Assembly: GCA_902792495.1 (NCBI GenBank)
Contig: CADBAC010000010.1
Span: 1 to 12,255 of the forward strand
Source of the DNA: Ruminococcus flavefaciens
Lineage (GTDB): Bacteria; Bacillota; Clostridia; Oscillospirales; Ruminococcaceae
DNA: 12,255 bases
Reading direction: 5' to 3'
A program made the position numbers and the translations under genes. Below are positions 1-12,255 of the stretch, in pieces. Numbering within the stretch: the stretch's first letter is position 1; the number at the start of each line of letters is the position of its first letter. Under the pieces are notes generated by a model. That model was not told the origin of the DNA and ran no database searches. It saw nothing but the letters and a program-made list of their open reading frames with translations.

Positions 1-2391
1 TTTGCAAGTCATGAGCCTCTTGTTGAGGACTGTCCCGATGTCAAGACCATAGAAGTGCCGCTTTCCCACAGATTTGAGACCTTCACCGTTGATATACATA
101 ATGAGATTGAAAAGGCAGGCTGGGACGCTTTTTACATATTCGACTGCCTTTCCGAATTGCAGGCTATGTGGGCTACCGACCTGATGATGGGCAACTTTTT
201 CAGAGTCACCTGCCCGTTCCTCTTTATACTTGATACAGTTGCATTCTTCCCGATAATCCGAGGAAAGCACTCAGTCCACGCAATAAACAAGATACTGAAT
301 ACCACGCAGCTTTTCTTCGACGTTTATTCCGATAAAAAGAACGTCTATGTGCGTCCCGAAAAGGTATGGAACAGAAACTCGGATACCATGTTCCTGCCGC
401 ATACATATGAGCCTGAAACAGGACATTTCCGTCCTATACTTGACGGCGTAAAGTCGAGCCGCTTCTATCAGGTTCTTGGCAATGCTCAGCGCTCCGCAGA
501 TGAGCAGTTCATGGACTCGTGGGACAGAAATTTCAAAAAGGCGAAGATACTCTATGACAGCGGTTTTGATATTTCGGAGCAATGCAGTAATATGTGCAAT
601 ATCATGATGACTCGCGATTCAAAAATGCGTGAAATGGTCAAGAAACACTTCAAGCCCGAGGACTATTTCAGCGTACGCGACCACATGATAGGCACTGGCA
701 TGATAGGCGGAAAAGCCTGCGGTATGCTCCTTGCAAGAGCAATTATCCGGAATAACGAGCCTGATATTGATGAAGTCCTCGAACCTCACGATTCTTTTTA
801 TGTCGGCTCTGATGTTTACTACACCTACATCGTCGACAACGATTTCTGGGATATGCGTATCAGGCAGCGTACAGAAGAAGGCTATTTCTCGCTCGCTGAT
901 GAGTTCGCTCAGCAGCTTATGAACGGCAGGTTTTCGGATGAAATGCGTGAACAGCTTAACCGTATCATCGAATATTACGGTCAGGATCCCTACATCGTCC
1001 GTTCAAGCAGTATCCTTGAGGACGGCTTCGGAAATGCTTTTGCAGGCAAATACGAGTCAGTTTTCTGTGCTAACAGAGGAACTCCTGAAGAACGCCTTGA
1101 AGAGTTTGAAAAGGCGATAAAAACTGTATACGCAAGCACTATGAGCCTTTCAGCTCTTGATTACAGAAAAAGGCGCGGACTTGATAAACGTGACGAGCAG
1201 ATGTCACTGCTGATACAGCGTGTATCGGGTTCTTACTACGGAGCATATTATATGCCGTGTGCAGCAGGTGTGGGATATTCATACAGTCCGTACAGCTTTC
1301 TCAAAAGCTCGGATCAGTCCGCAGGAATGCTCCGACTTGTAATGGGACTTGGTACGTCTGCCGTTGACAGGACGGAGGGCTCCTATCCACGTCTTGTAAG
1401 CCTTGATATGCCTGAGAAAACAGTTTATTCAAGCTATGCGGAAAGGCACAGATTCTCACAGGGCAAGATAGAAGTAATAAATACTTCCATTCATGATATG
1501 GAGCGTCTGCCGCTCCGTGATATTGAATCCGTGATACCGGAATATCTGCAAAATATACTTCTTGAACATGATTATGATGCCGAGAGTCGACTGCGCGAAA
1601 TGGGACGCAGAGTATCATCAACCTTTATCTCCTGCAAAGGTCTTGTCAGCAATAAAACACTTATGTCTCAGATGCAGAGAATGCTCAGATGTATACAGGA
1701 CGAATACGATTATCCTGTGGATACGGAGTTTACCATAAATGTTTCAGACAGCGGCGAATATTCCATTGACCTCCTGCAGTGCAGACCATTACAGGTACTG
1801 AAAGACAAAACAGGAGTTACCGTCCCTGACGTACCGCAGGAACATATCCTCCTTGAAAGCAAAGGCGCTTCAATGGGACTTTCAAAGGCTTCAAAGCTGG
1901 ATATCATCGTCTACGTCGACCCTGTTGTGTACTACAATATGCCCTACGCCGAGAAGAATTCCGTTGCCAAAATGATTGGAAAGGTAAACTGGCATTACCG
2001 CAATAAGGGCAAGCATATGATGTTAATGGTTCCGGGCAGAGTGGGCACATCATCTCCTGAACTTGGTGTACCTACGGCATTTTCTGATATAAGCGAATTT
2101 GACGTAGTATGCGAAATGGAGGAAGCACGGGCAGGCTATAATCCGGAGCTTTCCTATGGTAGTCATATCTTTCAGGACTTAGTCGAAGCTGAGATACTCT
2201 ACACGGCTGTATTTAATAACAGCAAGACACTTCATTTTGCTCCCGAAAAGTTCAGAGGGCTCAGGAATATGCTTGAGGACATTGACGAAAACAGCGGACT
2301 TGATGAAGTTATAAAGGTTTACGATGTGAGCAGATGCAAATGTGAACTTTATAACGATATCAAAAACGAGCATTTACTTATTACTATTTAA
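1..2391 (+). CDS. PEP synthase/PPDK-like ATP-grasp protein (5' end outside window)
   Basis: The frame is open from base 1 with no stop upstream, so the gene starts outside the window and the GTG at 55 is internal. The middle resembles the ATP-binding (PF01326) domain of PEP synthase and pyruvate phosphate dikinase: GGKACG at nt 706-723, YIVRSSSILED near 991-1023, AFAGKYES near 1036-1059, GLGTSAVDRTEGSYPR near 1345-1392 and the closing LLQCRPLQV near 1771-1797. The usual swivelling phosphohistidine domain (GGxxSHxAI) and the C-terminal PEP/pyruvate barrel are absent. Instead there is a tail of about 200 residues with PGRVGTSSPELGVP. The N-terminal part has a hydrophobic stretch ending in Asp (FYIFDCLSEL, nt 130-159) that could be a Walker B strand of a RecA/KaiC-like domain whose P-loop would lie upstream; this is an inference. 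It may phosphorylate or bind a partner rather than make PEP. The family call is firm, the function is not. Confidence 0.8.
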   Translation, partial: FASHEPLVEDCPDVKTIEVPLSHRFETFTVDIHNEIEKAGWDAFYIFDCLSELQAMWATDLMMGNFFRVTCPFLFILDTVAFFPIIRGKHSVHAINKILNTTQLFFDVYSDKKNVYVRPEKVWNRNSDTMFLPHTYEPETGHFRPILDGVKSSRFYQVLGNAQRSADEQFMDSWDRNFKKAKILYDSGFDISEQCSNMCNIMMTRDSKMREMVKKHFKPEDYFSVRDHMIGTGMIGGKACGMLLARAIIRNNEPDIDEVLEPHDSFYVGSDVYYTYIVDNDFWDMRIRQRTEEGYFSLADEFAQQLMNGRFSDEMREQLNRIIEYYGQDPYIVRSSSILEDGFGNAFAGKYESVFCANRGTPEERLEEFEKAIKTVYASTMSLSALDYRKRRGLDKRDEQMSLLIQRVSGSYYGAYYMPCAAGVGYSYSPYSFLKSSDQSAGMLRLVMGLGTSAVDRTEGSYPRLVSLDMPEKTVYSSYAERHRFSQGKIEVINTSIHDMERLPLRDIESVIPEYLQNILLEHDYDAESRLREMGRRVSSTFISCKGLVSNKTLMSQMQRMLRCIQDEYDYPVDTEFTINVSDSGEYSIDLLQCRPLQVLKDKTGVTVPDVPQEHILLESKGASMGLSKASKLDIIVYVDPVVYYNMPYAEKNSVAKMIGKVNWHYRNKGKHMMLMVPGRVGTSSPELGVPTAFSDISEFDVVCEMEEARAGYNPELSYGSHIFQDLVEAEILYTAVFNNSKTLHFAPEKFRGLRNMLEDIDENSGLDEVIKVYDVSRCKCELYNDIKNEHLLITI

Positions 2392-2397
2392 AGCAAT

Positions 2398-2430
2398 GGA
2401 GCTTCACTTTTGTGGAGCTCCTTATATTTT
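2398..2430 (+). terminator. Hairpin after the PPDK-like gene, probable weak terminator
   Basis: A 10-bp stem (arms 2398-2407 and 2412-2421, one G-U pair, loop TTTT) starts 7 nt after the stop codon. It is followed by TTATATTTT, a broken T tract. It lies directly before the ribosome site of the next gene, so it could end transcription of the first gene, partly attenuate the second, or mark a processing point. There is no clear promoter in the 51-bp gap. Confidence 0.6.
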
Positions 2431-2437
2431 GGAGTGA
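2431..2437 (+). promoter_or_regulatory. Shine-Dalgarno GGAGTGA that sets a TTG start
   Basis: GGAG at 2431-2434 stands 8 nt before the TTG at 2443. This makes 2443 the best start of the FUSC-HAD gene. An in-frame TTG at 2410 lies inside the preceding hairpin and has no ribosome site. Confidence 0.7.
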
Positions 2438-2442
2438 AAACA

Positions 2443-3756
2443 TTGAAACTTGTATTTCCGCCCATAGGGGCAAGGATAATGAAATCTGCTATTGCAGTCG
2501 GCTTATGTATGCTTGTATATTTCGTGAGGACGCTTTTGCCAATAGGCAACGGCATACCGTTTTACGGTGCATTAGCAGCTTTGTGGTGTATGCAGCAGTA
2601 CAATGACACAACTAAAACTAACGCAGTTCAGCGTTCGGTGGGAACACTTATCGGTGCTGGATATGGACTGCTTTTCCTGCTGTTGTTTCGACTGATTAAT
2701 GTTACTATCCCGATGATAGTATATATTTCTGCAAGTGCAGTGATAATACCCGTGATATATACAACTGTTGTTCTGAACAAGCGCAACGCCTCATTTTTCT
2801 CCTGCGTGGTATTTCTCAGTATTGCATTGACACACTCATTCGACAGCAATCCATATGTTTTCGTGATGAACAGAGTTATTGATACCTTTATTGGAATAAT
2901 TATCGGTGTAACAGTCAACGATTTCCGTCTGCCGATAAAACACGATACTGATAATCTATATGTAAGCGGAATTGACGACGTGCTTGTTTCTGCAGGACGG
3001 TCCGCCGCATACAGCAAGGTGGAGCTGAACAGGCTTATCCGCAGCGGTGTAAAATTTACCATATCTACTGTTCGTACTCCTGCTGTGCTTATGGACATAA
3101 TGAAAGGTGTGGAGTTACAGCTGCCTGTTATCGTTATGGACGGGGCAGCACTTTATGATGTAAAAGAAAAACAGTACCTTGAAACGGTCTATCTTCCATC
3201 AGATGTATCGTCTGAAGCAGAAAAGATCATCGCCGACTGCAGTTTGCACTGCTTCGTGAACGTAATGCTTGATTCAACGCTGCTTATATATTACGGTGAG
3301 TTCAGGAACGATGCTGAAAAGGAGCTATTTGATTCTTTCAGACATTCGCCTTACAGGAACTATATCAACTCGGAATATCGCCGAAAAGACGATAAAGAAC
3401 GCGTACTGTACCTGACTGTGCTTGCCGATAAATTCAGCACTTTCATACTCGAAGGGAAGCTTCGGAAACAGCTTGGAGAGCGTATAAGAATAAGCATTTC
3501 CGAGTCTGAATCTGAAGGCTTCATGTACCTGAAAGTATTCTCTCCTCAGGCTTCAAAGCAGAATATGCTGAAAAAACTCAAGGAGTACGCAAAAGCGGAG
3601 GATGTCATAACATTTGGCAGTATAAAGGGACAGTATGACGTTTATATCAATGATGGCGGCGGAAACGGAACTGTGAAAAGGCTTAAAAAGATATGCCGCA
3701 TAAACGGACTGGATCTCAAAGAGATAGATCAAACAGCCGGCCTCACTAAACAGTGA
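2443..3756 (+). CDS. FUSC-family membrane domain fused to degenerate HAD-like domain
   Basis: A 437-residue protein with a TTG start. Residues 1-160 hold about five or six hydrophobic segments (roughly 14-30, 38-50, 67-85, 88-112, 117-132, 143-158) and resemble the FUSC/aromatic acid exporter (ArAE_1) membrane domain. Residues 170-430 are cytoplasmic and resemble a Cof-type HAD hydrolase: the motif II-like stretch FTISTVRTP (205-213), PVIVMDGAALYD (228-239) and a motif III-like SKQNMLKKL (371-379). The motif I position reads VSGIDDVLVS (174-183), so the nucleophile Asp is replaced by Gly176 and only the second Asp remains. The GDxxND of motif IV is replaced by FGSIKGQYD (391-399). The HAD part is therefore probably not a phosphatase and may act as a ligand-sensing or scaffold domain. 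The gene is convergent with the amylase. The exported substrate, if any, is unknown. Confidence 0.75.
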   Translation: MKLVFPPIGARIMKSAIAVGLCMLVYFVRTLLPIGNGIPFYGALAALWCMQQYNDTTKTNAVQRSVGTLIGAGYGLLFLLLFRLINVTIPMIVYISASAVIIPVIYTTVVLNKRNASFFSCVVFLSIALTHSFDSNPYVFVMNRVIDTFIGIIIGVTVNDFRLPIKHDTDNLYVSGIDDVLVSAGRSAAYSKVELNRLIRSGVKFTISTVRTPAVLMDIMKGVELQLPVIVMDGAALYDVKEKQYLETVYLPSDVSSEAEKIIADCSLHCFVNVMLDSTLLIYYGEFRNDAEKELFDSFRHSPYRNYINSEYRRKDDKERVLYLTVLADKFSTFILEGKLRKQLGERIRISISESESEGFMYLKVFSPQASKQNMLKKLKEYAKAEDVITFGSIKGQYDVYINDGGGNGTVKRLKKICRINGLDLKEIDQTAGLTKQ

Positions 3757-3777
3757 AGCCAGCTGTTTGATCTATCT
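3722..3777. terminator. Long bidirectional hairpin at convergent gene ends
   Basis: Two 25-base arms (3722-3746 and 3753-3777) are complementary except at two positions, with a 6-base loop TAAACA. On the minus strand both exceptions become G-U pairs, so that RNA forms an unbroken stem; on the plus strand they are C-A mismatches. The left arm codes for the last residues of the FUSC-HAD protein, and the right arm contains the stop and last codon of the amylase. Neither side has a clean T tract (plus: TTTCCATTTTCC; minus: CTCTTTGAG). It is probably a shared terminator or 3' stability element for the two convergent genes. Confidence 0.75.
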
Positions 3778-5082
3778 TTCCATTTTCCATATCTGAGCTG
3801 AATACGGCGGCAGCTCGCTTCCGCCTCCAAAGTCGTGCTTTGAGCCTGTTATAAGCTCGTCTGCCATGCCGCAGCCTGCGTCAAAATGAGCGGTGAACGG
3901 CTGAGAATCAGCATTTATCGCAATGAGTATGCGCTCATCGTCACAGCGGCGCTGAATGATACACTGCTTGTTTGTCAGCACAGGAACGCTTATATCTCCG
4001 TAGCATAGAGCCTTGCTCTCGCGATGTATCTTTGCAAGCTTTGAAATATAAACTGAAAGCTCATTGTCTATCGGTGCGTCATATGAAAGTCTGAGAGCAG
4101 GATCGCCGTCTTTTTTATCACCCTCAGCACCCCATTCGCTGCCGTAATAAATGCATGGAATACCTGGCATTCCGAACATGATCGCATATATCAGCGGCAG
4201 ATGATCTTTGTTTGACAGTATAGTTGCAACTCTTGAAACATCGTGGTTGTCAACAAAGCTCAGGAGGTGCATACCGCGGTACATACACCAGTTTTCTGGA
4301 CCGAACTGATTTTTCAGAGAATGGCATATCTCAAACATATTCATGCTGTTGAAGCTTGAATACAGCCCCTTGTAGCACTGATAATTCGTCGCTGAATGAA
4401 GCATTTCATTATTTACAAACTGCGAGTAATCTCCGTGAAGGAGCTCTCCTATCAGCACAAAATCCTCTTTCAGTCCGCTTGTAAAGCTGCGAAGCCTCTT
4501 CAGAAATTCCTTATCGAGACAATATGCCACATCGAGTCTCAGACCGTCGATGTCAAACTCGTCTACCCAGCCCTTTATGCAGGAGAAGATATGCTCAACG
4601 ACTTCATTGTTCCAGAGGTTCAGCTTGACAAGGTCGAAGTGTCCCTCCCAGCCCTCATACCACAATCCGTCATTGTAGTTGGAGTTGCCGCCGAAGTTTA
4701 TATGGAACCAGTCCTTATAGCGTGAATTCTCGCGATTACGCAGTACGTCCTGAAATGCCCAGAAACCTCTGCCAACGTGATTGAAAACGCCGTCAAGCAC
4801 GACCTTTATGCCCCTTTTGTGAAGCTCTGCACATACCTGTGCAAAGTCCTCGTTAGAACCTAAACGGCAGTCTATTTTTGTAAAGTCCCTTGTGTTATAT
4901 CCGTGGGTATCAGATTCAAAAACAGGCGAAAAATATACCGCATTGCAATTGAGTGATTTTATATGATCCGCCCAGTCTATAACTTTCAGTATTCTTGATT
5001 GCTGAACTCCGTCATTCTCAAATGGTGCTCCGCAGAATCCGAGAGGATATATCTGATAAAACACGCTTTCATATGCCCACAT
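3772..5082 (-). CDS. GH13 alpha-amylase-family glycosidase, intracellular
   Basis: A 436-residue protein from the ATG at 5082. It is a near-minimal GH13 (beta/alpha)8 barrel with a short C-terminal domain. Conserved regions are DGVFNH (97-102), GLRLDVA with the nucleophile Asp184, LIGELLHG with the acid/base Glu213, and FVDNHD with His280 and Asp281 (transition-state Asp). NPxF-type calcium loops and starch-binding modules are not evident. There is no signal peptide, so it acts in the cytoplasm, probably on maltodextrins or other alpha-glucans taken up or stored. It is closest in style to neopullulanase/maltogenic or cyclomaltodextrinase-like enzymes, but it lacks their N-terminal CBM34-type domain; the exact specificity is not readable. 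It has its own promoter behind the isocitrate dehydrogenase gene and ends in a hairpin shared with the convergent gene. Confidence 0.9.
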   Translation of the reverse strand: MWAYESVFYQIYPLGFCGAPFENDGVQQSRILKVIDWADHIKSLNCNAVYFSPVFESDTHGYNTRDFTKIDCRLGSNEDFAQVCAELHKRGIKVVLDGVFNHVGRGFWAFQDVLRNRENSRYKDWFHINFGGNSNYNDGLWYEGWEGHFDLVKLNLWNNEVVEHIFSCIKGWVDEFDIDGLRLDVAYCLDKEFLKRLRSFTSGLKEDFVLIGELLHGDYSQFVNNEMLHSATNYQCYKGLYSSFNSMNMFEICHSLKNQFGPENWCMYRGMHLLSFVDNHDVSRVATILSNKDHLPLIYAIMFGMPGIPCIYYGSEWGAEGDKKDGDPALRLSYDAPIDNELSVYISKLAKIHRESKALCYGDISVPVLTNKQCIIQRRCDDERILIAINADSQPFTAHFDAGCGMADELITGSKHDFGGGSELPPYSAQIWKMER

Positions 5083-5089
5083 TTTTATT

Positions 5090-5095
5090 ACCTCC
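5090..5095 (-). promoter_or_regulatory. Shine-Dalgarno GGAGGT of the amylase gene
   Basis: On the minus strand GGAGGT is followed by 7 nt and then the ATG at 5082. A longer in-frame reading from the TTG at 5103 would put this ribosome site inside the gene, so 5082 is the start. Confidence 0.85.
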
Positions 5096-5118
5096 GTTGT
5101 CAATAGTCTATAATCAAG

Positions 5119-5151
5119 AACGGCGCCTGTCCATTCAGGATGAGCGCCGTT
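5119..5151 (-). promoter_or_regulatory. Leader hairpin of the amylase gene (GGCGC family)
   Basis: On the minus strand an 8-bp perfect stem AACGGCGC/GCGCCGTT encloses a second short stem (TCC/GGA, loop TGAAT). It begins about 20-25 nt after the -10 box and about 37 nt before the start codon. What follows (CTTGATTATAG) is not a real T tract, so it is a weak terminator at best. It resembles the leader hairpins of the citrate synthase and ATP-grasp genes in sequence and placement. It could also serve as the 3' end of the citrate synthase-icd transcript. Confidence 0.65.
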
Positions 5152-5171
5152 GCTATTCTTATTACTTTCTT

Positions 5172-5200
5172 ATCTTATCATATGCTCAATGTTTTGTCAA
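5172..5200 (-). promoter_or_regulatory. Sigma-A-type promoter of the amylase gene
   Basis: On the minus strand a perfect -35 TTGACA (5195-5200) is followed after 17 nt by TAAGAT (5172-5177; four of six consensus bases). It lies 15 bp after the icd stop, so the amylase can be transcribed apart from the upstream gene pair. Confidence 0.6.
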
Positions 5201-5214
5201 TAGAACGATTAACT

Positions 5215-6432
5215 TTATTTCTTGTACATTTCACTTAGCCTTCTTCCAGTCTCAATGAGGAATGTTTCGGTATCAACAGTACGCTTGCTCTTCAGCTTGG
5301 ATATAGCTGCAAGGTCGCCTGTCATAATACCTTCGCTTATAGTATCCAATATAGCTTTTTCGAGCTTGTCTGCATATTCACACAATGCAGGCGTTGAATC
5401 AAGTTCACCTCTTTTACGCAGAGCACCTGTCCATGCAAAAACTGTAGCTACAGGGTTAGTTGACGTCTTTTCACCTTTAAGATATTTGTAATAATGACGC
5501 TGAACTGTTCCGTGGGCTGCCTCATATTCATATTTTCCGTCAGGCGATACTAGCACTGATGTCATCATTGCGAGGCTTCCGTATGCAGTTGCGACCATAT
5601 CTGACATAACATCTCCATCATAGTTTTTACAAGCCCAGATATATCCGCCATTTGAACGTATTACTCTTGCAACAGCATCATCTATAAGGGTATAGAAATA
5701 CTCGATACCAACAGCTTCAAATCTTGCCTTGTATTCCTTTTCATATATTTCAGCAAAAATATCCTTGAAGCGATGATCGTATTTTTTAGATATAGTGTCT
5801 TTTGTTGCAAACCATAGATCCTGTTTTGTATCAATAGCATAGTTGAAGCAGGAACGTGCAAATCCTTCAATTGACTTATCCTTGTTATGCAGTCCCTGTA
5901 TAATTCCTGCACTGTCAGAAAAATCGTATATTAAACTCAGTGACTCATTGCCATCTTTATCAGTAACTTTCAGTTCAGCCATGCTTCCCTCGCTGACACG
6001 CATTTCTGTATTTTTATATACATCGCCGTAAGCGTGTCTGGCAATAGTTATAGGCTTGGTCCATGTTGGTATGTATGGTTCTATTCCTTTGGCAATAATT
6101 GGAGCACGGAAAACTGTTCCATCAAGTATCGCTCTTATTGTTCCATTGGGCGATTTCCACATCTCCTTCAGGTCATATTCATCCATTCTTGCTGCATTCG
6201 GAGTTATAGTAGCGCATTTTACAGCCACTCCGTATTTCTTTGTTGCCTCAGCAGATTCGATAGTTACCTTGTCATCAGTCTCATTTCTGTGTACAAGTCC
6301 GAGATCGTAGTATTCAGTCTTTAAATCGATATACGGAAGAATGAGAATATCCTTTATCATCCTCCATATAACGCGCGTCATTTCATCTCCGTCCATTTCG
6401 ACCAAGGGTGTTTTCATTTTGATCTTTTCCAT
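5215..6432 (-). CDS. icd: NADP-dependent isocitrate dehydrogenase (eukaryotic-type, dimeric)
   Basis: 405 residues, the same length class as the animal/yeast-type homodimeric enzyme rather than the E. coli type. It oxidises isocitrate to 2-oxoglutarate with NADP in the cytoplasm. Visible substrate-site residues are KSPNGTIR (93-100), GTVFR (105-109), Arg132 in [10 protein letters not shown] with Tyr139, Lys211, and metal ligands Asp251, Asp274 and Asp278 in the IDDAV and NYDGDVMSD segments. [12 protein letters not shown] carries Arg312-His313, the pair that binds the 2'-phosphate of NADP. The ATG at 6432 is preceded by AAAGG with 9 nt spacing. The gene follows citrate synthase after 46 bp with no promoter or terminator seen between, so the two are probably one operon supplying 2-oxoglutarate for glutamate synthesis. 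Aconitase is not in the window. Confidence 0.97.
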
Positions 6433-6478
6433 ATTTATCAGCCTTTCTTGATTTATTTGAAGTCATATGACCACTGAA

Positions 6479-7816
6479 CTAACGGTTCGATATATCTACA
6501 TATTCTTTTTCTCTGGCTATTGATTTGTAGGCAGGACGCATGATTCGCTTACCACTGTTTATTTCTTCAAATCTGTGAGCACACCAACCAGCAATTCTTG
6601 AAACTGCAAACAATGGAGTGAAAAGGTCGTCGGGTATTCCGAGCATCTTATACACAAATCCACTGTACATATCAATATTTGCACACATTGTTTTTCCTGA
6701 TTTCTTGATGCTTTCAAAAACAGCAGGCGTAAGGCGCTCAACTGCTTCAAGAAGCTTGAATTCCTTTTCAAATTCTGTCCCAGTTGCTATCTCACCTGCG
6801 TATTTTTTCAGTATGACCGCACGCGGATCCGACAGCGTATATACTGCGTGGCCCATGCCGTATATAAGTCCTCGTCCGTCACCTATCTCCTTTCGCAGTA
6901 TCTTCCCGAGAACTTCTGCTATCTCATCATCGTTTTCCCAGTTTTTTACATTGGATTTTATAAGCTCCTGCATTTCAAGCACTTTATGATTGGCACCTCC
7001 GTGCCGTGGCCCCTTCAATGAACCTATTGCTGCGGAATATGCCGAATACGGATCGGTTCCTGATGATGTAAGAACACGGCAGGTAAAGGTTGAGTTGTTT
7101 CCTCCGCCATGTTCAGCATGGAGCATAAGCATCAAGTCAAGAAGTTTAGCTTCTTCTCTTGTAAACTTCCTGTCTGCGCGAAGTATTGACAGAATATTTT
7201 CAGCGGTAGATTGGCCTTTTATCAATGGATGGAGTATCAGTGACCTATCATCATAGCAGCGCCTTTTTGTCTCATAAGCTCCTACCATTATCACAGGCAT
7301 TTTTGCTATCAGTGATATTGCTGTATCGACTTCATGTTCCGGAGTCTGTGATTCGGCTTCTTCATCATACGAATATAGTGACAGAACAGCTCTAGCCATT
7401 TTGTTCATAATATTGGGCGACGGAGCTTTAAGTATCATATCAACGAAAAAATCCTTTGGTAAGGCGCGTTCATCGGAAAGCATTATATTAAATTCTTCAA
7501 GTTCTTTCCTATCCGGCAGCCTTCCTGTAAGTAGCAGAAATACGATTTCTTCAAATCCAAACCTGTCTTCTGTGCGTACTTTTTCTATCAAGTCATTAAT
7601 GCTGTATCCTCTGAAAATCAGTTTTCCTTCAGCAGCTCTTTTTTCACCATCATCAACAACATATCCGTGAACATTACAGATATTCGTCACACCGGCCATA
7701 ACACCCGTTCCATCGAGGTTCCTAAGACCTCTTTTAACGCTATATTTATCAAAATATTTTGGATCAATACTGTTTTCGGATGAAAAAGAAGAATACATTG
7801 TTTCTTTTACGTTCAT
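6479..7816 (-). CDS. gltA: Citrate synthase
   Basis: 445 residues from the ATG at 7816. It condenses oxaloacetate and acetyl-CoA to citrate. Fold and active-site motifs are IFRGYSINDLIE (67-78), the HAEHGGGNNSTF block with catalytic His236, SLKGPRHGGANHKV (266-279), MGHAVY with His323 and ANIDMYSG with Asp382. The first His block carries HAEHGGGNN in place of the HADHExN of proteobacterial enzymes, a variant I associate with clostridial citrate synthases. The N terminus has about 40 residues before the first conserved block. It is the first gene of the gltA-icd pair and has its own consensus promoter, with a terminator-like hairpin in the leader. A 2-methylcitrate synthase side activity cannot be excluded, but pairing with icd argues for the citrate role. 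Confidence 0.95.
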   Translation of the reverse strand: MNVKETMYSSFSSENSIDPKYFDKYSVKRGLRNLDGTGVMAGVTNICNVHGYVVDDGEKRAAEGKLIFRGYSINDLIEKVRTEDRFGFEEIVFLLLTGRLPDRKELEEFNIMLSDERALPKDFFVDMILKAPSPNIMNKMARAVLSLYSYDEEAESQTPEHEVDTAISLIAKMPVIMVGAYETKRRCYDDRSLILHPLIKGQSTAENILSILRADRKFTREEAKLLDLMLMLHAEHGGGNNSTFTCRVLTSSGTDPYSAYSAAIGSLKGPRHGGANHKVLEMQELIKSNVKNWENDDEIAEVLGKILRKEIGDGRGLIYGMGHAVYTLSDPRAVILKKYAGEIATGTEFEKEFKLLEAVERLTPAVFESIKKSGKTMCANIDMYSGFVYKMLGIPDDLFTPLFAVSRIAGWCAHRFEEINSGKRIMRPAYKSIAREKEYVDISNR

Positions 7817-7824
7817 AGCTATCA

Positions 7825-7828
7825 CTCC
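7825..7828 (-). promoter_or_regulatory. Shine-Dalgarno GGAG of citrate synthase
   Basis: On the minus strand GGAG is followed by TGATAGCT (8 nt) and the ATG at 7816. A GTG at 7825 in the same frame overlaps this site and is rejected as the start. Confidence 0.8.
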
Positions 7829-7831
7829 AAC

Positions 7832-7867
7832 AAAAAACGGTGCTTGCCCATTATGGGAAGCACCGTT
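7832..7867 (-). terminator. Terminator-like hairpin inside the gltA leader (attenuator)
   Basis: On the minus strand a 10-bp stem (AACGGTGCTT/AAGCACCGTT) plus, after one bulged C, a 4-bp stem (CCCA/TGGG, loop TAA) overlaps a run of six T. This is a textbook intrinsic terminator. It starts about 19 nt after the predicted transcription start and ends 15 nt before the start codon. No gene transcribed in this direction precedes it, so it can only act on transcripts from the gltA promoter itself. A regulated readthrough (attenuation) is the simplest reading. Confidence 0.8.
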
Positions 7868-7892
7868 GCTTTATTTGTCTTTTTATGATGTC

Positions 7893-7921
7893 ATTATATC
7901 CTTTTTTACTCAGCTTGTCAA
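7893..7921 (-). promoter_or_regulatory. Consensus sigma-A promoter of gltA-icd
   Basis: On the minus strand TTGACA (7916-7921), 17-nt spacer and TATAAT (7893-7898), a full match to consensus at both boxes. Transcription should start near 7886, giving a leader of about 70 nt that contains the hairpin at 7832-7867. Such a strong promoter followed by a terminator fits control at elongation rather than initiation. Confidence 0.85.
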
Positions 7922-7984
7922 TACCTTTTTGAAATTTTCTCGAACATACTCGCTTTTGTTTAGAAAAAAATTTTTGTTAGACTA

Positions 7985-8013
7985 TTGACAAACATAAAAA
8001 CCTGTGATATGAT
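7985..8013 (+). promoter_or_regulatory. Sigma-A promoter of the ATP-grasp/alpha-E operon
   Basis: TTGACA (7985-7990), 17-nt spacer and TATGAT (8008-8013). An A/T-rich tract at 7961-7978 just upstream could act as an UP element. A second TATAAT-like hexamer at 8019-8024 has no matching -35 at proper spacing. Transcription should start near 8020. The promoter is divergent from that of gltA, with the two -35 boxes 63 bp apart. Confidence 0.8.
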
Positions 8014-8033
8014 GTAAATATAATAAAACAAGC

Positions 8034-8068
8034 AAAGGCGCTTATCCGCATGGATAGGCGCCTTTTTT
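8034..8068 (+). terminator. Terminator-like hairpin in the ATP-grasp operon leader (attenuator)
   Basis: An 11-bp GC-rich stem (8037-8047 with 8052-8062, one U-G pair, loop GCAT), extended by AAA/TTT pairs, runs into a T6 tract (8063-8068). It begins about 15 nt after the predicted transcription start and ends 26 nt before the start codon. The gene upstream is divergent, so this hairpin can stop only the operon's own transcript. It shares its stem sequence and the ATGG at the loop with the hairpin of the gltA leader. Confidence 0.8.
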
Positions 8069-8082
8069 GTTTGTTAATGATT

Positions 8083-8086
8083 GGAG
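8083..8086 (+). promoter_or_regulatory. Shine-Dalgarno GGAG of the ATP-grasp gene
   Basis: GGAG followed by TGATAATA (8 nt) and the ATG at 8095. The spacing and flanking bases (TTGGAGTGATA) are nearly the same as at the gltA start. An in-frame ATG at 8050 lies in the hairpin loop and lacks a good ribosome site. Confidence 0.8.
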
Positions 8087-8094
8087 TGATAATA

Positions 8095-9438
8095 ATGACA
8101 CAGCAGAATATTGAGCAATTTACAAAGCCGGTAGGCAATGCAAACGAGATAAATGAGCTTCTAAGACGTTACGGTGTAAAATTCGGCATATACAAAAATG
8201 GTGTTTTCAACGAGCAATTCTTCCCTTTTGATCCTATACCCCGAGTCATATCTTCGGAGGATTTCAAAAGCATTGAAAAGGGACTTGTTCAGCGTGTGAA
8301 TGCACTGAATGAGTTCCTTTTTGATATTTATCACGATCAAAATATCGTAAAGGACGGCGTTATCCCCGAGAACTTCATTTACATCTCAAAGGGTTATCTT
8401 GCACAGTGCGAGGGCATAACTCCGAAGAACAGGATATACAGTCATATTTCCGGGATAGATCTTGTTCAGGCTAAAGACGGTGAATGGTATATTCTTGAAG
8501 ATAACCTGCGTATACCGTCAGGAGCTTCATATCCGCTTATTGCCCGTGAACTTACGAGAATTGCCGCACCTGACGCTTTTTCTGAAAATGAGATCGTCGA
8601 TAACCGCAACTACGCAAAGCTGCTCAAAGAAACGATGGACTATGCAAACTGCGGCGGTATAAGTGCGATACTCACTCCCGGACGATACAATGCCGCTTAC
8701 TTTGAACACTCCTATCTTGCGGAGCATACAGGCTCGGTGCTTGTTCAGAATGACGAGCTTTTCGTCGAGGACAATATTCTCTACCACAGAACATATTCTG
8801 GCGGCAAAACAAGGATAGGTGTTCTGTACAGGCGTATCGGCGACGAGTATCTTGATCCGCTGAATTTCCTGCCCGAATCTCTTATAGGCATACCGAATCT
8901 TATGGAGGCTTACCGCAGCGGAAATGTGGGTATTATAAACGCTCCCGGAAACGGAGTTGCCGACGACAAAGGTATCTACTATTTCGTACCCAAGATGATA
9001 AAATATTACCTCGGTGAAGAGCCGATACTGAAAAATGCTCCGACCTATCTTCCCTTCTATGATGACGATATGAAGTACGTTATGGACAACCTCGGTAAAC
9101 TTGTTATCAAGGACGTTGCAGAGGCAGGCGGATACGGTGTTGTATTCGGCAGCGACCTCACAAAAGAAAAGCTGGAGGAATTCCGCCAGACTATAATTGC
9201 CGAGCCGAGACGATTTATCGCACAGGAGGTCATCGACTTCCTTGACTTGCCGATACTTGACAACGACGAAACAGTAATGCGAAAGGCAGACCTGAGAGCG
9301 TTTGTGCTGTCAGGTGAAACGACTAAGGTATGGGCTTCTGGACTTACAAGATTCTCACGCAATCCCGATTCTTTCGTGGTCAATTCATCGCAGGGAGGCG
9401 GATTTAAAGATACCTGGGTACTCAAAACGGGTACATAA
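8095..9438 (+). CDS. Circularly permuted ATP-grasp protein (CP_ATPgrasp_2 type)
   Basis: 447 residues. Hallmarks of the circularly permuted ATP-grasp family (formerly DUF404/DUF407) appear in order: GEWYILEDNLRIPSGASY (129-146), VLYRRIGDEYLDPL (243-256), GIPNLMEAYRSGNVGIINAPGNGV (265-288), the nucleotide-loop region LVIKDVAEAGGYGVVFG (336-352), RFIAQEVIDF (373-382), DLRAFV (399-404) and the signature NSSQGGGFKDTWVL (430-443). Such enzymes are expected to form an amide or peptide bond by an acyl-phosphate intermediate; the substrate is not known. It is the first gene of an operon with alpha-E, transglutaminase and AstE-like genes, the context known for this family, where it is thought to make or attach a peptide-like group. 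Start chosen by the GGAG at 8083. The alpha-E gene follows after 17 bp. Confidence 0.92.
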   Translation: MTQQNIEQFTKPVGNANEINELLRRYGVKFGIYKNGVFNEQFFPFDPIPRVISSEDFKSIEKGLVQRVNALNEFLFDIYHDQNIVKDGVIPENFIYISKGYLAQCEGITPKNRIYSHISGIDLVQAKDGEWYILEDNLRIPSGASYPLIARELTRIAAPDAFSENEIVDNRNYAKLLKETMDYANCGGISAILTPGRYNAAYFEHSYLAEHTGSVLVQNDELFVEDNILYHRTYSGGKTRIGVLYRRIGDEYLDPLNFLPESLIGIPNLMEAYRSGNVGIINAPGNGVADDKGIYYFVPKMIKYYLGEEPILKNAPTYLPFYDDDMKYVMDNLGKLVIKDVAEAGGYGVVFGSDLTKEKLEEFRQTIIAEPRRFIAQEVIDFLDLPILDNDETVMRKADLRAFVLSGETTKVWASGLTRFSRNPDSFVVNSSQGGGFKDTWVLKTGT

Positions 9439-9455
9439 AACTGAAAGGAGAATTT

Positions 9456-10157
9456 ATGTCAACAATCTCAAAGGAACACAGCGACCGACTTTTCTGGCTT
9501 GGGCGCTATGCGGAAAGATTTTTCATCACGCTCAGGTCACTTGACAAGCTATATGACAAAATGATAGACGACAAACAAGGTTACAAGGAGTATCTTTCCT
9601 ACTTCGGAATTGCTGATAAATACTCAGACAGCAAAGATTTCATACATAGCTTTCTGTATGATGAAAGCAATCCCAACTCTGCTGCATTTTGCCTTGAAAG
9701 AGCTTACGATAACGGTATAGTTCTGCGTGAGGAGATATCAACAAAAACACTTTCCTTTCTGCAGATGGCTAAGGATACGCTCACGAATTCACAGAGCAAG
9801 GCAAATATAAGATTATCGCTCCTGCCACTGAAAGATATACTGTACAGCTTCTGGGGCAGCGTGAACGAGCACATCTACGACGACGAGATACGCAATATAA
9901 TCTACATCGGAAAAACTCTTGAACGCCTTGATATGTACATTAGAATGAAGTATCCATTTGCTGATGTAGAAAAGGAATTCATCAGACTTTGCAAAAATCT
10001 GCACCGTGTTCCAAAAGGAACTCCGTACCGCTATAACACAAATTATCTTTGCACTGTCGTTGAAGTGCTCGGCACCGAAAGCAATTATAAGCTTTATTCT
10101 GATAAGGCAATACAAAGCCTTGAGCACCTGTTTGAACCAATGGAGGTGTCATTATGA
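9456..10157 (+). CDS. Alpha-E domain protein, short form
   Basis: 233 residues, all-helical in character. The N-terminal signature RLFWLGRYAERFFITLR (11-27) matches the WxGRYxER motif that opens the alpha-E (DUF403) family. Family members are usually near 300 residues, so this one is clearly short, yet it has a normal start (AAAGGAG at 9444-9450) and stop and shows no frameshift. Its role is unknown; it nearly always accompanies circularly permuted ATP-grasp proteins and is thought to be their partner or a module of the same enzyme. Its stop overlaps the start of the transglutaminase gene (ATGA), which points to translational coupling. Confidence 0.88.
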   Translation: MSTISKEHSDRLFWLGRYAERFFITLRSLDKLYDKMIDDKQGYKEYLSYFGIADKYSDSKDFIHSFLYDESNPNSAAFCLERAYDNGIVLREEISTKTLSFLQMAKDTLTNSQSKANIRLSLLPLKDILYSFWGSVNEHIYDDEIRNIIYIGKTLERLDMYIRMKYPFADVEKEFIRLCKNLHRVPKGTPYRYNTNYLCTVVEVLGTESNYKLYSDKAIQSLEHLFEPMEVSL

Positions 10158-10924
10158 AAACGCTTAATTTCAGCTTCTCCACGAAGCTCACATTTGACGA
10201 TTACGTCCACGATCACAGCTTTGCTCTGAGGATAATCCCGCCTGATACCGAATTTCAGAAAATCATTTCATGCAGTCTTAATATCTCTCCCTCTGTTATT
10301 ACAAAGCAGACCGTTGACGCTTTCGGCAACAACGTAACGGCAGGATATATTCAGGGTGACCATCGTTTCCTTGATTTTGATATCAAGGGAACAGCTGAAG
10401 TGGATTCATCAAAGCACAGCACATTTCTCATGCCGTGCTATCTGTATCAGTCGGAGTTCACAGCTCCCGATGAGAAATTAATAAAATTCTACTCTGAGCT
10501 CAAGGGTAATTATAGTGAAAAGCCCGCCGAAAAAGCAGTATTTTTCAGCGATATTCTGTCCGACCTTATCGAGTACAAAAAAGGCGTTACCACAACTGCG
10601 ACAACTGCCGCTGAAGCCTTTGCAATGAGAGCGGGAGTATGCCAGGATTTCTCGCATATCCTCATATCACTACTGAGAATGGACGGTATACCTGCTCGAT
10701 ATGTAGCAGGTCTGGCATTCTGTGACGGCGAAACTCATTCGTGGGTTGAATACTGGACCGGCGACCACTGGGAAGGATTCGATCCTGCAAATAACTGTCC
10801 GGTGAATGACGATTACCTCGTAATCTCAACGGGACGAGATTTTCGTGACTGTGCTATCGACAGGGGCGTGATGTTCGGAAGATATACCCAGCAATTGCAG
10901 TTAGTACGCTCAGTCTTAACATAA
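10154..10924 (+). CDS. Transglutaminase-like cysteine protease/amidase with bacterial N-terminal domain
   Basis: 256 residues. The first 80 or so resemble the beta-rich bacterial transglutaminase N-terminal domain. The core carries the papain-like triad: Cys163 in RAGVCQDFSHI, His195 in THSWVEYW and Asp210 in GFDPANNC. There is no signal peptide or membrane segment, so it is cytoplasmic. In ATP-grasp/alpha-E operons such proteins are expected to cleave or exchange an amide or isopeptide bond; crosslinking is possible but less likely. A strong GGAGGTG (10142-10148) lies inside the end of the alpha-E gene, with the ATG overlapping its stop. The active site is intact. The substrate is unknown. 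Confidence 0.92.
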   Translation: MKTLNFSFSTKLTFDDYVHDHSFALRIIPPDTEFQKIISCSLNISPSVITKQTVDAFGNNVTAGYIQGDHRFLDFDIKGTAEVDSSKHSTFLMPCYLYQSEFTAPDEKLIKFYSELKGNYSEKPAEKAVFFSDILSDLIEYKKGVTTTATTAAEAFAMRAGVCQDFSHILISLLRMDGIPARYVAGLAFCDGETHSWVEYWTGDHWEGFDPANNCPVNDDYLVISTGRDFRDCAIDRGVMFGRYTQQLQLVRSVLT

Positions 10925-10928
10925 GCAG

Positions 10929-10947
10929 GGGCGGGTATTACCCGCCC
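10929..10947 (+). other. Intercistronic hairpin without T tract
   Basis: GGGCGGGT and ACCCGCCC form a perfect 8-bp, very GC-rich stem with loop ATT. It starts 4 nt after the transglutaminase stop and ends just before the AAGGA ribosome site of the next gene. With no T tract behind it, it is not an intrinsic terminator; it could slow polymerase, protect or split the mRNA, or tune translation of the next gene. Confidence 0.7.
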
Positions 10948-10963
10948 GAAAGGAATGAATTAA

Positions 10964-11905
10964 ATGATAGAAACAATTGCGACTGCTGCACTTGCAGTCA
11001 ATGAGAATCTTAATATACAGAAACGACGAATCGAAAACGGAACGTCAAAAAAACGTCTCAGCCTTGTTACCGGAACTCACGGCGACGAGCTTGAAGGACA
11101 GTATCTTGCATACATGATTGGTTCTTATCTTGACGAACATATAGACTGCCTTGACGGTATCGTTGACATTTATCCTGCACTCAATCCTATGGGAATAGAC
11201 TCCATAACTCGCGGAGTACCCATGTTTGATCTTGATATGAACCGTGTTTTTCCCGGCTCTAAGGACGGCACTATGATAGAGATGATCTGCTCCATGATAG
11301 TAGATGATATCGTTGGATCAGACGTTTGCATAGACGTTCATTCAAGTAATATTTTCTTGCAGGAGATACCGCAGATACGAATGAGCGTACCTACTGCGCC
11401 AGCACTTTTACCATATGCGAAGATGATGAATGTTGACTTTATATGGGTACACGATGCAGCAACTGTTCTTGAATCAACTCTCGCACATACTCTCAATACA
11501 CGGGGAACGAAAACTCTTGTTGTAGAAATGGGAGTTGGTATGCGTATTACAAGGAAATACTGTAAGCAGCTTTTTGACGGTATATTTTATCTGCTGAAGG
11601 ATCTTGGAATGTGGAGCGGCGAGACAACTCCAGTGCGCGAACCAATAGTTTCGGAGGGGCGTGAGGTCGGTTTTGTAAATTCTGATGCAGCCGGTATTTT
11701 TGTCCCGTGCGTCAGCTTTGGTGAGGCAGTGGAAAAAGGCAATCATATCGGTGATGTGGTCGATCCGCTGTCGTCAAAAACAGTAGAAAAAGTGGACGCT
11801 GTATGTGACGGAATGATATTCACTCTGCGCGAATATCCCGTCGTGTACGGCGGCTCGTTGCTTGCAAGGATATTGCAGCCTGCTTCGGGAGGTGTTGAGA
11901 AATGA
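10964..11905 (+). CDS. AstE/AspA-type zinc amidohydrolase (M14-like), intact site
   Basis: 313 residues, the usual length of the succinylglutamate desuccinylase/aspartoacylase family (PF04952). Predicted zinc ligands are His39 and Glu42 in GTHGDELEG and His126 in CIDVHSSN; the likely catalytic acid/base is Glu188 in TLVVEMGVG. A DMNRVFPG motif (91-98) binds the substrate carboxylate in relatives. The C-terminal beta part (about 215-300) is normal. It should hydrolyse an N-acyl amide or a C-terminal amide of an Asp/Glu-like compound; arginine catabolism is not implied, as no other ast genes are near. Start ATG 10964 follows AGGA by 9 nt. The next gene overlaps by ATGA and is a distant paralog. 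Specificity is unknown. Confidence 0.9.
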   Translation: MIETIATAALAVNENLNIQKRRIENGTSKKRLSLVTGTHGDELEGQYLAYMIGSYLDEHIDCLDGIVDIYPALNPMGIDSITRGVPMFDLDMNRVFPGSKDGTMIEMICSMIVDDIVGSDVCIDVHSSNIFLQEIPQIRMSVPTAPALLPYAKMMNVDFIWVHDAATVLESTLAHTLNTRGTKTLVVEMGVGMRITRKYCKQLFDGIFYLLKDLGMWSGETTPVREPIVSEGREVGFVNSDAAGIFVPCVSFGEAVEKGNHIGDVVDPLSSKTVEKVDAVCDGMIFTLREYPVVYGGSLLARILQPASGGVEK

Positions 11906-12255
11906 AGAAAAAAGTATTATACTCGCTGAAATCACCTTATCGCGAACAGCTTGACGTTATAGGTTTTCGCTTCGGTCACGGAAAAAAATCGGCGGCTATT
12001 ATCGGTGCAATGCGGGGCAATGAAGTTCAGCAGATGTACGTTTGCAGCCGAATGGTGCAGGAGCTGAAAAAACTGGAAGCAAAGGGACTTATCGCAGAGG
12101 ATAACGAGATAATGGTCATTCCCTGCGTGAATTACTACTCAATGAATATCGGCAAGCGTTTCTGGGCAATGGACAACACCGACATCAACCGAATGTTCCC
12201 GGGTTACTGGCAGGGCGAGACCACACAACGTATCGCTGACGGTCTTTTCTCGAAG
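11902..12255 (+). CDS. Second AstE/AspA-type protein with altered zinc motif (3' end outside window)
   Basis: The first 118 residues are visible and the frame is still open at the window end. It is the same superfamily as the gene before: AAIIGAMRGNEVQQ (31-44) aligns with the metal motif, and DNTDINRMFPGYWQGETTQR (91-110) with the DMNRVFPG region. The zinc-binding His of HGDE is Arg38 here, in RGNE, while the Glu ligand (Glu41) is kept. The third ligand lies beyond the window. RGNE with SMNIGKRFW and INRMFPG appears to be a distinct subgroup, so the change is probably fixed and not a mutation. It may bind metal differently or have lost catalysis. Strong GGAGGTG (11888-11894), 7 nt spacing and ATGA overlap show translational coupling with its paralog. 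Confidence 0.85.
   Translation, partial: MKKKVLYSLKSPYREQLDVIGFRFGHGKKSAAIIGAMRGNEVQQMYVCSRMVQELKKLEAKGLIAEDNEIMVIPCVNYYSMNIGKRFWAMDNTDINRMFPGYWQGETTQRIADGLFSK

Follow-up and report, generated by a model that had tools for sequence, protein, structure and literature searches.

The stretch of DNA analysed here, called the window below, comprises 12,255 nucleotides (nt) of Ruminococcus flavefaciens (assembly GCA_902792495.1, contig CADBAC010000010.1, positions 1 to 12,255 of the forward strand), and in it four genes or operons are preceded by a short RNA element, in which a mini-hairpin with a six-base loop (hexaloop) overlaps the 5' arm of a terminator-like hairpin. A sequence-only reading had noticed three of these hairpins and had proposed a possibly undescribed cis-regulatory RNA, or else a DNA operator, at the head of a regulon sensing carbon or nitrogen state. 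The present analysis supports an RNA regulon, and it is likely that the hairpins act as transcription attenuators in a nitrogen regulon of the ANTAR type and that they work with a single hexaloop, that is, without the additional upstream hexaloop P1 of the dual-hairpin ANTAR targets.

On the + strand, the operon of CP_ATPgrasp_2, Alpha-E, transglutaminase and AstE genes (first gene at 8095..9438) is led by the promoter TTGACA-17-TATGAT at 7985..8013, which matches the consensus at 11 of 12 positions and has a TG ahead of its -10; behind it lie the hexaloop mini-hairpin AGC[AAAGGC]GCT at 8031..8042, a putative ANTAR-type antiterminator, and at 8034..8068 a terminator-like hairpin with a U-run, mutually exclusive with the former. 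On the - strand, the citrate synthase gene (6479..7816) and icd downstream of it (Iso_dh, 5215-6432) follow the promoter TTGACA-17-TATAAT at 7893..7921 (12/12), the mini-hairpin AGC[AACGGT]GCT at 7859..7870 and a terminator-like hairpin with U6 at 7832..7867. The GH13 alpha-amylase gene (3772..5082), also on the - strand, has the promoter TTGACA-17-TAAGAT at 5172..5200 (10/12), the mini-hairpin AGC[AACGGC]GCT at 5143..5154 and, at 5116..5151, a terminator-like hairpin with the weak U-run TTCTTG. These three hairpins with their strands, the promoters just ahead of them and the genes behind them are as the sequence-only reading had described, and are confirmed by sequence, by folding and by Pfam: each hairpin begins 20-25 nt past the end of the -10 of its TTGACA-17 promoter, and none of 200 dinucleotide shuffles folds as well as any of the three (z -4.5, -6.0 and -5.9).

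The fourth copy had gone unnoticed. The element AAGC[AATGGA]GCTT with its terminator occupies 2391-2428 (+), between a PPDK-like gene, whose stop it abuts, and a FUSC/HAD membrane protein gene (2443..3756, +); the mini-hairpin AGC[AATGGA]GCT lies at 2392..2403 (+) and the terminator-like hairpin GGAGCTTCAC..GTGGAGCTCC with its T-rich tail at 2398..2428 (+). It scores 33.5 bits (E 0.0014 in a 217-kb search) and is not among the matches listed in the whole-genome searches. The product of 2443-3756, in which a FUSC-type membrane domain is joined to a HAD hydrolase domain, is a recurring member of the regulon. An in-frame ATG at 8050-8052 falls in the loop of the ATP-grasp hairpin, so that an open reading frame would start within the attenuator, probably by chance. 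Across the window Rfam gives no match at the gathering cut-off, and a search of 7800-8120 gives nothing better than sub-threshold hits.

The conserved unit extends to AGCAA immediately 5' of every stem, and its best-conserved part is the 12-mer AGC[AANGGN]GCT, a mini-hairpin whose six-base loop carries A at position 1 and G at position 4. Its 3' half doubles as the 5' arm of the terminator (NGGNGCT), so that only one of the two folds can form at a time. The nascent segment 8020-8050 of the ATP-grasp leader folds exactly into the hexaloop hairpin, weakly (-2.8 kcal/mol); in the fold computed for the citrate synthase leader, loop bases 1 and 6 pair as well, which leaves a tetraloop. GC, loop A2, loop G4 and GCT are invariant across 34 selected leaders; of 82 covariance-model hits, 77 have the form NGC[A..G..]GCN and 75 the form AGC[AANGRN]GCT. 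The overlap with the terminator 5' arm is found at 122 of 137 distinct AGCAANGGNGCT sites of loci, most of which were fetched for the motif.

That the stems differ mostly by changes which keep pairing, as the sequence-only reading had remarked, is borne out by covarying stems in relatives. In the terminator stem, 8 of 12 pairs show two-sided changes, pairing stands at 94% against 40.5-54% in slid controls, and the column pairs 9-39 and 12-36 take all four Watson-Crick types. One-sided changes, counted in 102 elements by a symmetric pairing rule, are nearly all G.T and hardly ever C.A: G has T as its partner 81 times and C 262 times, whereas C has A 3 times and G 162 times (p 4e-12), which argues for selection on pairing in the RNA of the mRNA strand. 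Changes in the hexaloop stem are few and mostly compensated. Besides AGC/GCT, pairing is kept by AAC/GTT in three cases (two before gltB, one before the ATP-grasp gene), by GGC/GCC in two (a homologous pair) and by AGC/GTT in one, while TGC/GCT, seen once, loses it; these seven rows in true register were chosen by eye from 150, most of the others being off-register duplicates or chance stems, and the three-pair row TCG/TGG in locus L283 was excluded as chance.

Some leaders hold more than one unit. A second unit, CATACAC[AAAGGG]GTGTATG, with a near-invariant 7-bp stem and its own terminator, occurs in the amtB and pyrG leaders about 55-65 nt past the first AGC (L091, L094, L148, L218, L220, L221 and others) and is often preceded by AGCGCTAATTC; this comes from a list of 38 rows, which also contains three chance stems (two in ATP-grasp rows, one in a coding row). 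The sequence AGCAAGGGAGCTGCGGAT.., which occurs in many genomes and could be mistaken for coding, belongs to the amtB/pyrG leader. Two loci (L236 and L242) have two serial attenuators ahead of the ATP-grasp gene, 77 nt apart.

The sequence-only reading had called for a covariance search for further copies, and had held that an absence of hits beyond the three would speak against it. A model built from the three sequences lists no sites beyond them in the own genome (an assembly 79.6% complete), so that this genome alone would have told against the proposal; the relatives do not, as the same model finds clear, clustered homologues there; at E <= 0.01 it hits genomes of relatives in 89 cases out of 149, ordinary terminators included. 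A 34-sequence model matches 23 of 40 same-genus genomes, the 40 having been picked partly for having hits. The exact pattern AGCAANGGNGCTN{3,26}RGCNYYNTTT occurs in 69 of 125 genus genomes and once (G009) in the backward-read control, where context was checked for some of the listed hits and certain ones resemble chance matches within genes. Traced by its protein, the ATP-grasp gene was followed in the best 80 of 292 public loci, many of them labelled Ruminococcus, including R. flavefaciens and R. albus; leaving aside L282 (no upstream DNA) and L292 (too short), a hexaloop overlapping a terminator lies upstream of it in 67 of 78, against a mean of 3.1 and a maximum of 7 in dinucleotide shuffles. 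The position right behind promoters, which the sequence-only reading had given for its cis-regulatory RNA, is borne out by the relatives.

The genes behind the element form a nitrogen/glutamine regulon. Directly behind the 82 model hits are proteins of the ATP-grasp (16), FUSC/HAD (12), GNAT (12), NAD synthase (11), C26 peptidase (7), citrate synthase (5), AmtB (3), amylase (2) and PPDK-like (2) groups; two hits, both in L147, run into a truncated FUSC frame, and the remainder are single or without a clear gene. The grouping is by protein similarity, and each group takes its name from one member or from a few. Most of the FUSC copies are intercistronic. The element also heads CTP synthase with glutamine synthetase III behind it, AmtB-PII with a gene like that of glutamine synthetase III behind it, and a LysA-like gene, and a C26/GATase peptidase and glutamate synthase are likewise among the genes behind it in relatives. 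A leader of the form AAC[A..G..]GTT with a terminator precedes gltB in L221 (identified by Pfam) and in L107 and L197 (identified by the gene start), and outside this family, elsewhere in the order, the same form leads glutamine synthetase III genes (G101, by Pfam; G123, G112 and G098, by translated sequence). The nitrogen or carbon regulon proposed earlier is borne out by these gene sets, and the carbon-only version suggested by amylase and citrate synthase was dropped because the wider set is one of nitrogen.

Genes of ANTAR proteins stand in the same pathway. In the own genome an ANTAR (PF03861) protein, G000:C46, scores 57.8 bits against a cut-off of 27.3 and is encoded directly behind a glutamine synthetase gene (L222). 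ANTAR is detected in 115 of 125 genus genomes, most of which hold two paralogues, and its gene directly follows that of glutamine synthetase in all four of L218, L219, L221 and L222, while G035 and G149 have the order gltBD-glnA-ANTAR-purF-asnB with a CTP synthase element beside the operon in both. AmiR and NasT function together with a partner protein and need no phosphorylation. In the Ruminococcus proteins the usual phospho-acceptor place is Asn in the four named loci, and in other relatives that were read Gly (L170), Cys (L171), Asn (L195) and once Asp (L193). Since the phospho-acceptor is mostly replaced and the second ANTAR type falls below the receiver cut-off, the signal may come by way of a partner protein and not by phosphorylation, and the place of the gene suggests glutamine synthetase as that partner, which is a guess. 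The likeness to AmiR, whose chain 1qo0 was matched, includes a receiver-like domain joined to ANTAR, His at the position of EutV Tyr164 and Asn at the phospho-acceptor place in the four proteins examined; being encoded behind glutamine synthetase sets the Ruminococcus proteins apart from AmiR-type ones. By our own alignment mapping (chain numbering offset by two), the EutV residues K149, E160, M172, N173 and R175 are kept in Ruminococcus ANTAR, the roles of the RNA-contact residues being taken from PMC8934654.

From the RNA element, its alternative pairings, its gene set and the ANTAR genes, all of which are shown here, we infer the following course of events, in which the protein binding, the signal and the direction of the response are the inferred parts. 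Polymerase would start at the strong promoter, and AGC[AANGGN]GCU would emerge within a few nucleotides. Unaided, NGGNGCU would pair with AGCNCCN ahead of the U-run and transcription would end some 50 nt in. Under a shortage of nitrogen or glutamine, the ANTAR protein encoded beside glutamine synthetase would bind and stabilise the hexaloop hairpin; with that hairpin held, the terminator could not form and the gene would be read.

What distinguishes this layout from the known family is the lone hexaloop, and the question arises whether the elements might be canonical dual-hexaloop targets whose real start lies further upstream, the P1 having been missed. PMC3369931 gives reason to ask, as in Enterococcus faecalis deletion of P1 abolished induction, dual hexaloops were required for EutV, and altering the linker from its natural range of 5-12 nt harmed induction. 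A dual element does exist in the order: a scan of the same kind finds in L315, of another family, a canonical dual-hexaloop ANTAR leader on the minus strand near 7655, with P1 ATATGGGC[AATGGC]GTTCATAT and a linker of 5, before a glnA-like gene. Among 109 promoter-linked units, a relaxed scan at the sequence level, which counts candidates whether transcribed or not, gives 5 with a P1 candidate. Of the intergenic FUSC copies, two (L068 and L073) have a candidate with linker 0. Against this, no P1 candidate lies within the predicted transcript of any of 194 promoter-linked elements, and 188 of them have less than 17 nt (0-16) between the start and AGC; starts were predicted from promoters, and a promoter within 60 nt was the entry condition, by which long leaders are excluded. 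With promoters matching the consensus at 10-12 of 12 positions, a missed upstream start appears unlikely.

The remaining alternatives concern what reads the element, if anything does. A palindrome bound as DNA by a repressor just past the start site would fit stems which are palindromic, adjoin promoters and score with the model on the reverse strand also, at lower bits; a symmetric constraint on both strands is at odds with 81 G.T against 3 C.A, and the T-run on the mRNA side, the conserved AGC outside the palindrome, the mostly intercistronic FUSC copies and intergenic copies with no good promoter nearby make the operator, which the sequence-only reading had kept as its alternative, very improbable. 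The terminator-like shape, a motif match (L077) behind the end of an upstream gene and the generic terminators which, read by eye, also scored with the three-sequence model would agree with constitutive 5' hairpins protecting the mRNA, or with neighbours' ordinary terminators, without any regulator. This we find hard to credit. Of the 61 consensus promoters in the fetched loci, 22 are followed by no stem of at least 6 pairs within 75 nt, and some stems behind the remaining 39 belong to tRNA or are unrelated; the hexaloop core, besides, is conserved, and the genes make a coherent functional set. Finally, the same layout could serve a regulon read by another RNA-binding protein, or by a small RNA, recognising AGCAANGG, for binding by ANTAR is a proposal and the elements depart from the published 13-mer at position 9; the ANTAR genes in the same pathway behind glnA, the several RNA-contact residues kept and a gene set like those described for ANTAR targets (PMC3369931) leave this with a very slim chance. 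Two further candidates were dropped: CsrA binding to ATGGA in the loop, the short-stem copies having no such motif, and an antiterminator of the BglG/LicT type.

Several observations weigh against an ANTAR-read single hexaloop. As EutV needs dual hexaloops, one may not suffice. The hexaloop hairpin alone (8020-8050) is not stabler than shuffles (z 0.05, 102 of 200 as good), the U-run is poor in the copies before the amylase and FUSC genes, and 11 of the 78 ATP-grasp loci lack the unit by scan, though inspection by eye shows the core in L274, L290 and L307. At four positions both ANTAR types depart from EutV: Y164, which is His, R142, R168 and R177. The co-occurrence of protein and element is suggestive only: the element is found in 67 of 115 genomes with ANTAR and 2 of 10 without (p 0.022, kinship uncorrected), and among high-quality genomes in 41 of 65 against 0 of 3 (p 0.058); in G160 (86% complete) and G163 (71% complete) the motif is present and ANTAR is not detected.

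The design itself is already known as ANTAR-type antitermination, so that of the earlier suggestion of an undescribed element only the single-hexaloop, promoter-abutting attenuator, of which the papers searched gave no instance, stands as new. The ANTAR targets of PMC3369931 (PLoS Genet 2012; eut/EutV of E. faecalis, nasF/NasR and amiE/AmiR) share with the Ruminococcus elements a hexaloop with A1 and G4 overlapping the terminator 5' arm, nitrogen genes and, in part, the core AGCAANGRRGCUY; the Ruminococcus elements differ in lacking the upstream P1 with its short linker and in a position 9 that is mostly a pyrimidine. The published 13-mer AGCAANGRRGCUY covers the 5' arm of the eut terminators, within the dual hexaloop motif, and our elements fit it except at position 9, where R occurs in only 30 of 108; its thirteenth base, by reading, is G in most amtB-type copies. 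The search pattern preset G4 and the GCT columns in the 108-element count, and counts in which G4 and most of the stem are preset in this way are not independent evidence for the core. The same source describes a nitrogen ANTAR regulon of Desulfotomaculum acetoxidans, with at least 13 elements in six units, which is likewise multi-operon and made of attenuators; it was found with a dual-hairpin model, whereas the Ruminococcus elements are single hexaloops, and the Ruminococcus set includes the ATP-grasp operon and such genes as those of NAD synthase, CTP synthase and citrate synthase.

The study of the minimal EutV binding motif of one hexaloop (Nucleic Acids Res 2022, PMC8934654) agrees in that a single hexaloop suffices for binding in vitro. 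It differs in holding that termination is prevented only if both hexaloops of the dual motif are contacted, and it expects single sites in settings where a transcribing polymerase imposes no time limit. A non-exhaustive search of open-access PMC text found neither this Ruminococcus regulon nor single-hexaloop antitermination, and the supplementary tables of PMC3369931 could list Ruminococcus sites. Both ANTAR RNA surveys consulted, PMC3369931 and PMC8164766, used dual-hairpin models, and therefore could have missed single-hexaloop elements.

Going further, we put forward tentatively, as quite possible, that a lone hexaloop at the 5' end is a complete ANTAR antiterminator, in which P1 would be dispensable because ANTAR would capture the hexaloop on its emergence from a polymerase barely past the promoter, and that a degenerate-receiver ANTAR protein together with glutamine synthetase forms the sensor of a genus-wide, perhaps order-wide, regulon. 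Current ANTAR models would not expect the one-hairpin form to work, and the natural single-hexaloop leaders would bear on the need for P1 in ANTAR antitermination. For the fibre-degrading bacteria of the rumen and gut, this would give a concrete circuit of nitrogen control, and it would tie the genes for NAD, CTP, citrate/2-oxoglutarate and the ATP-grasp proteins to ammonium assimilation.

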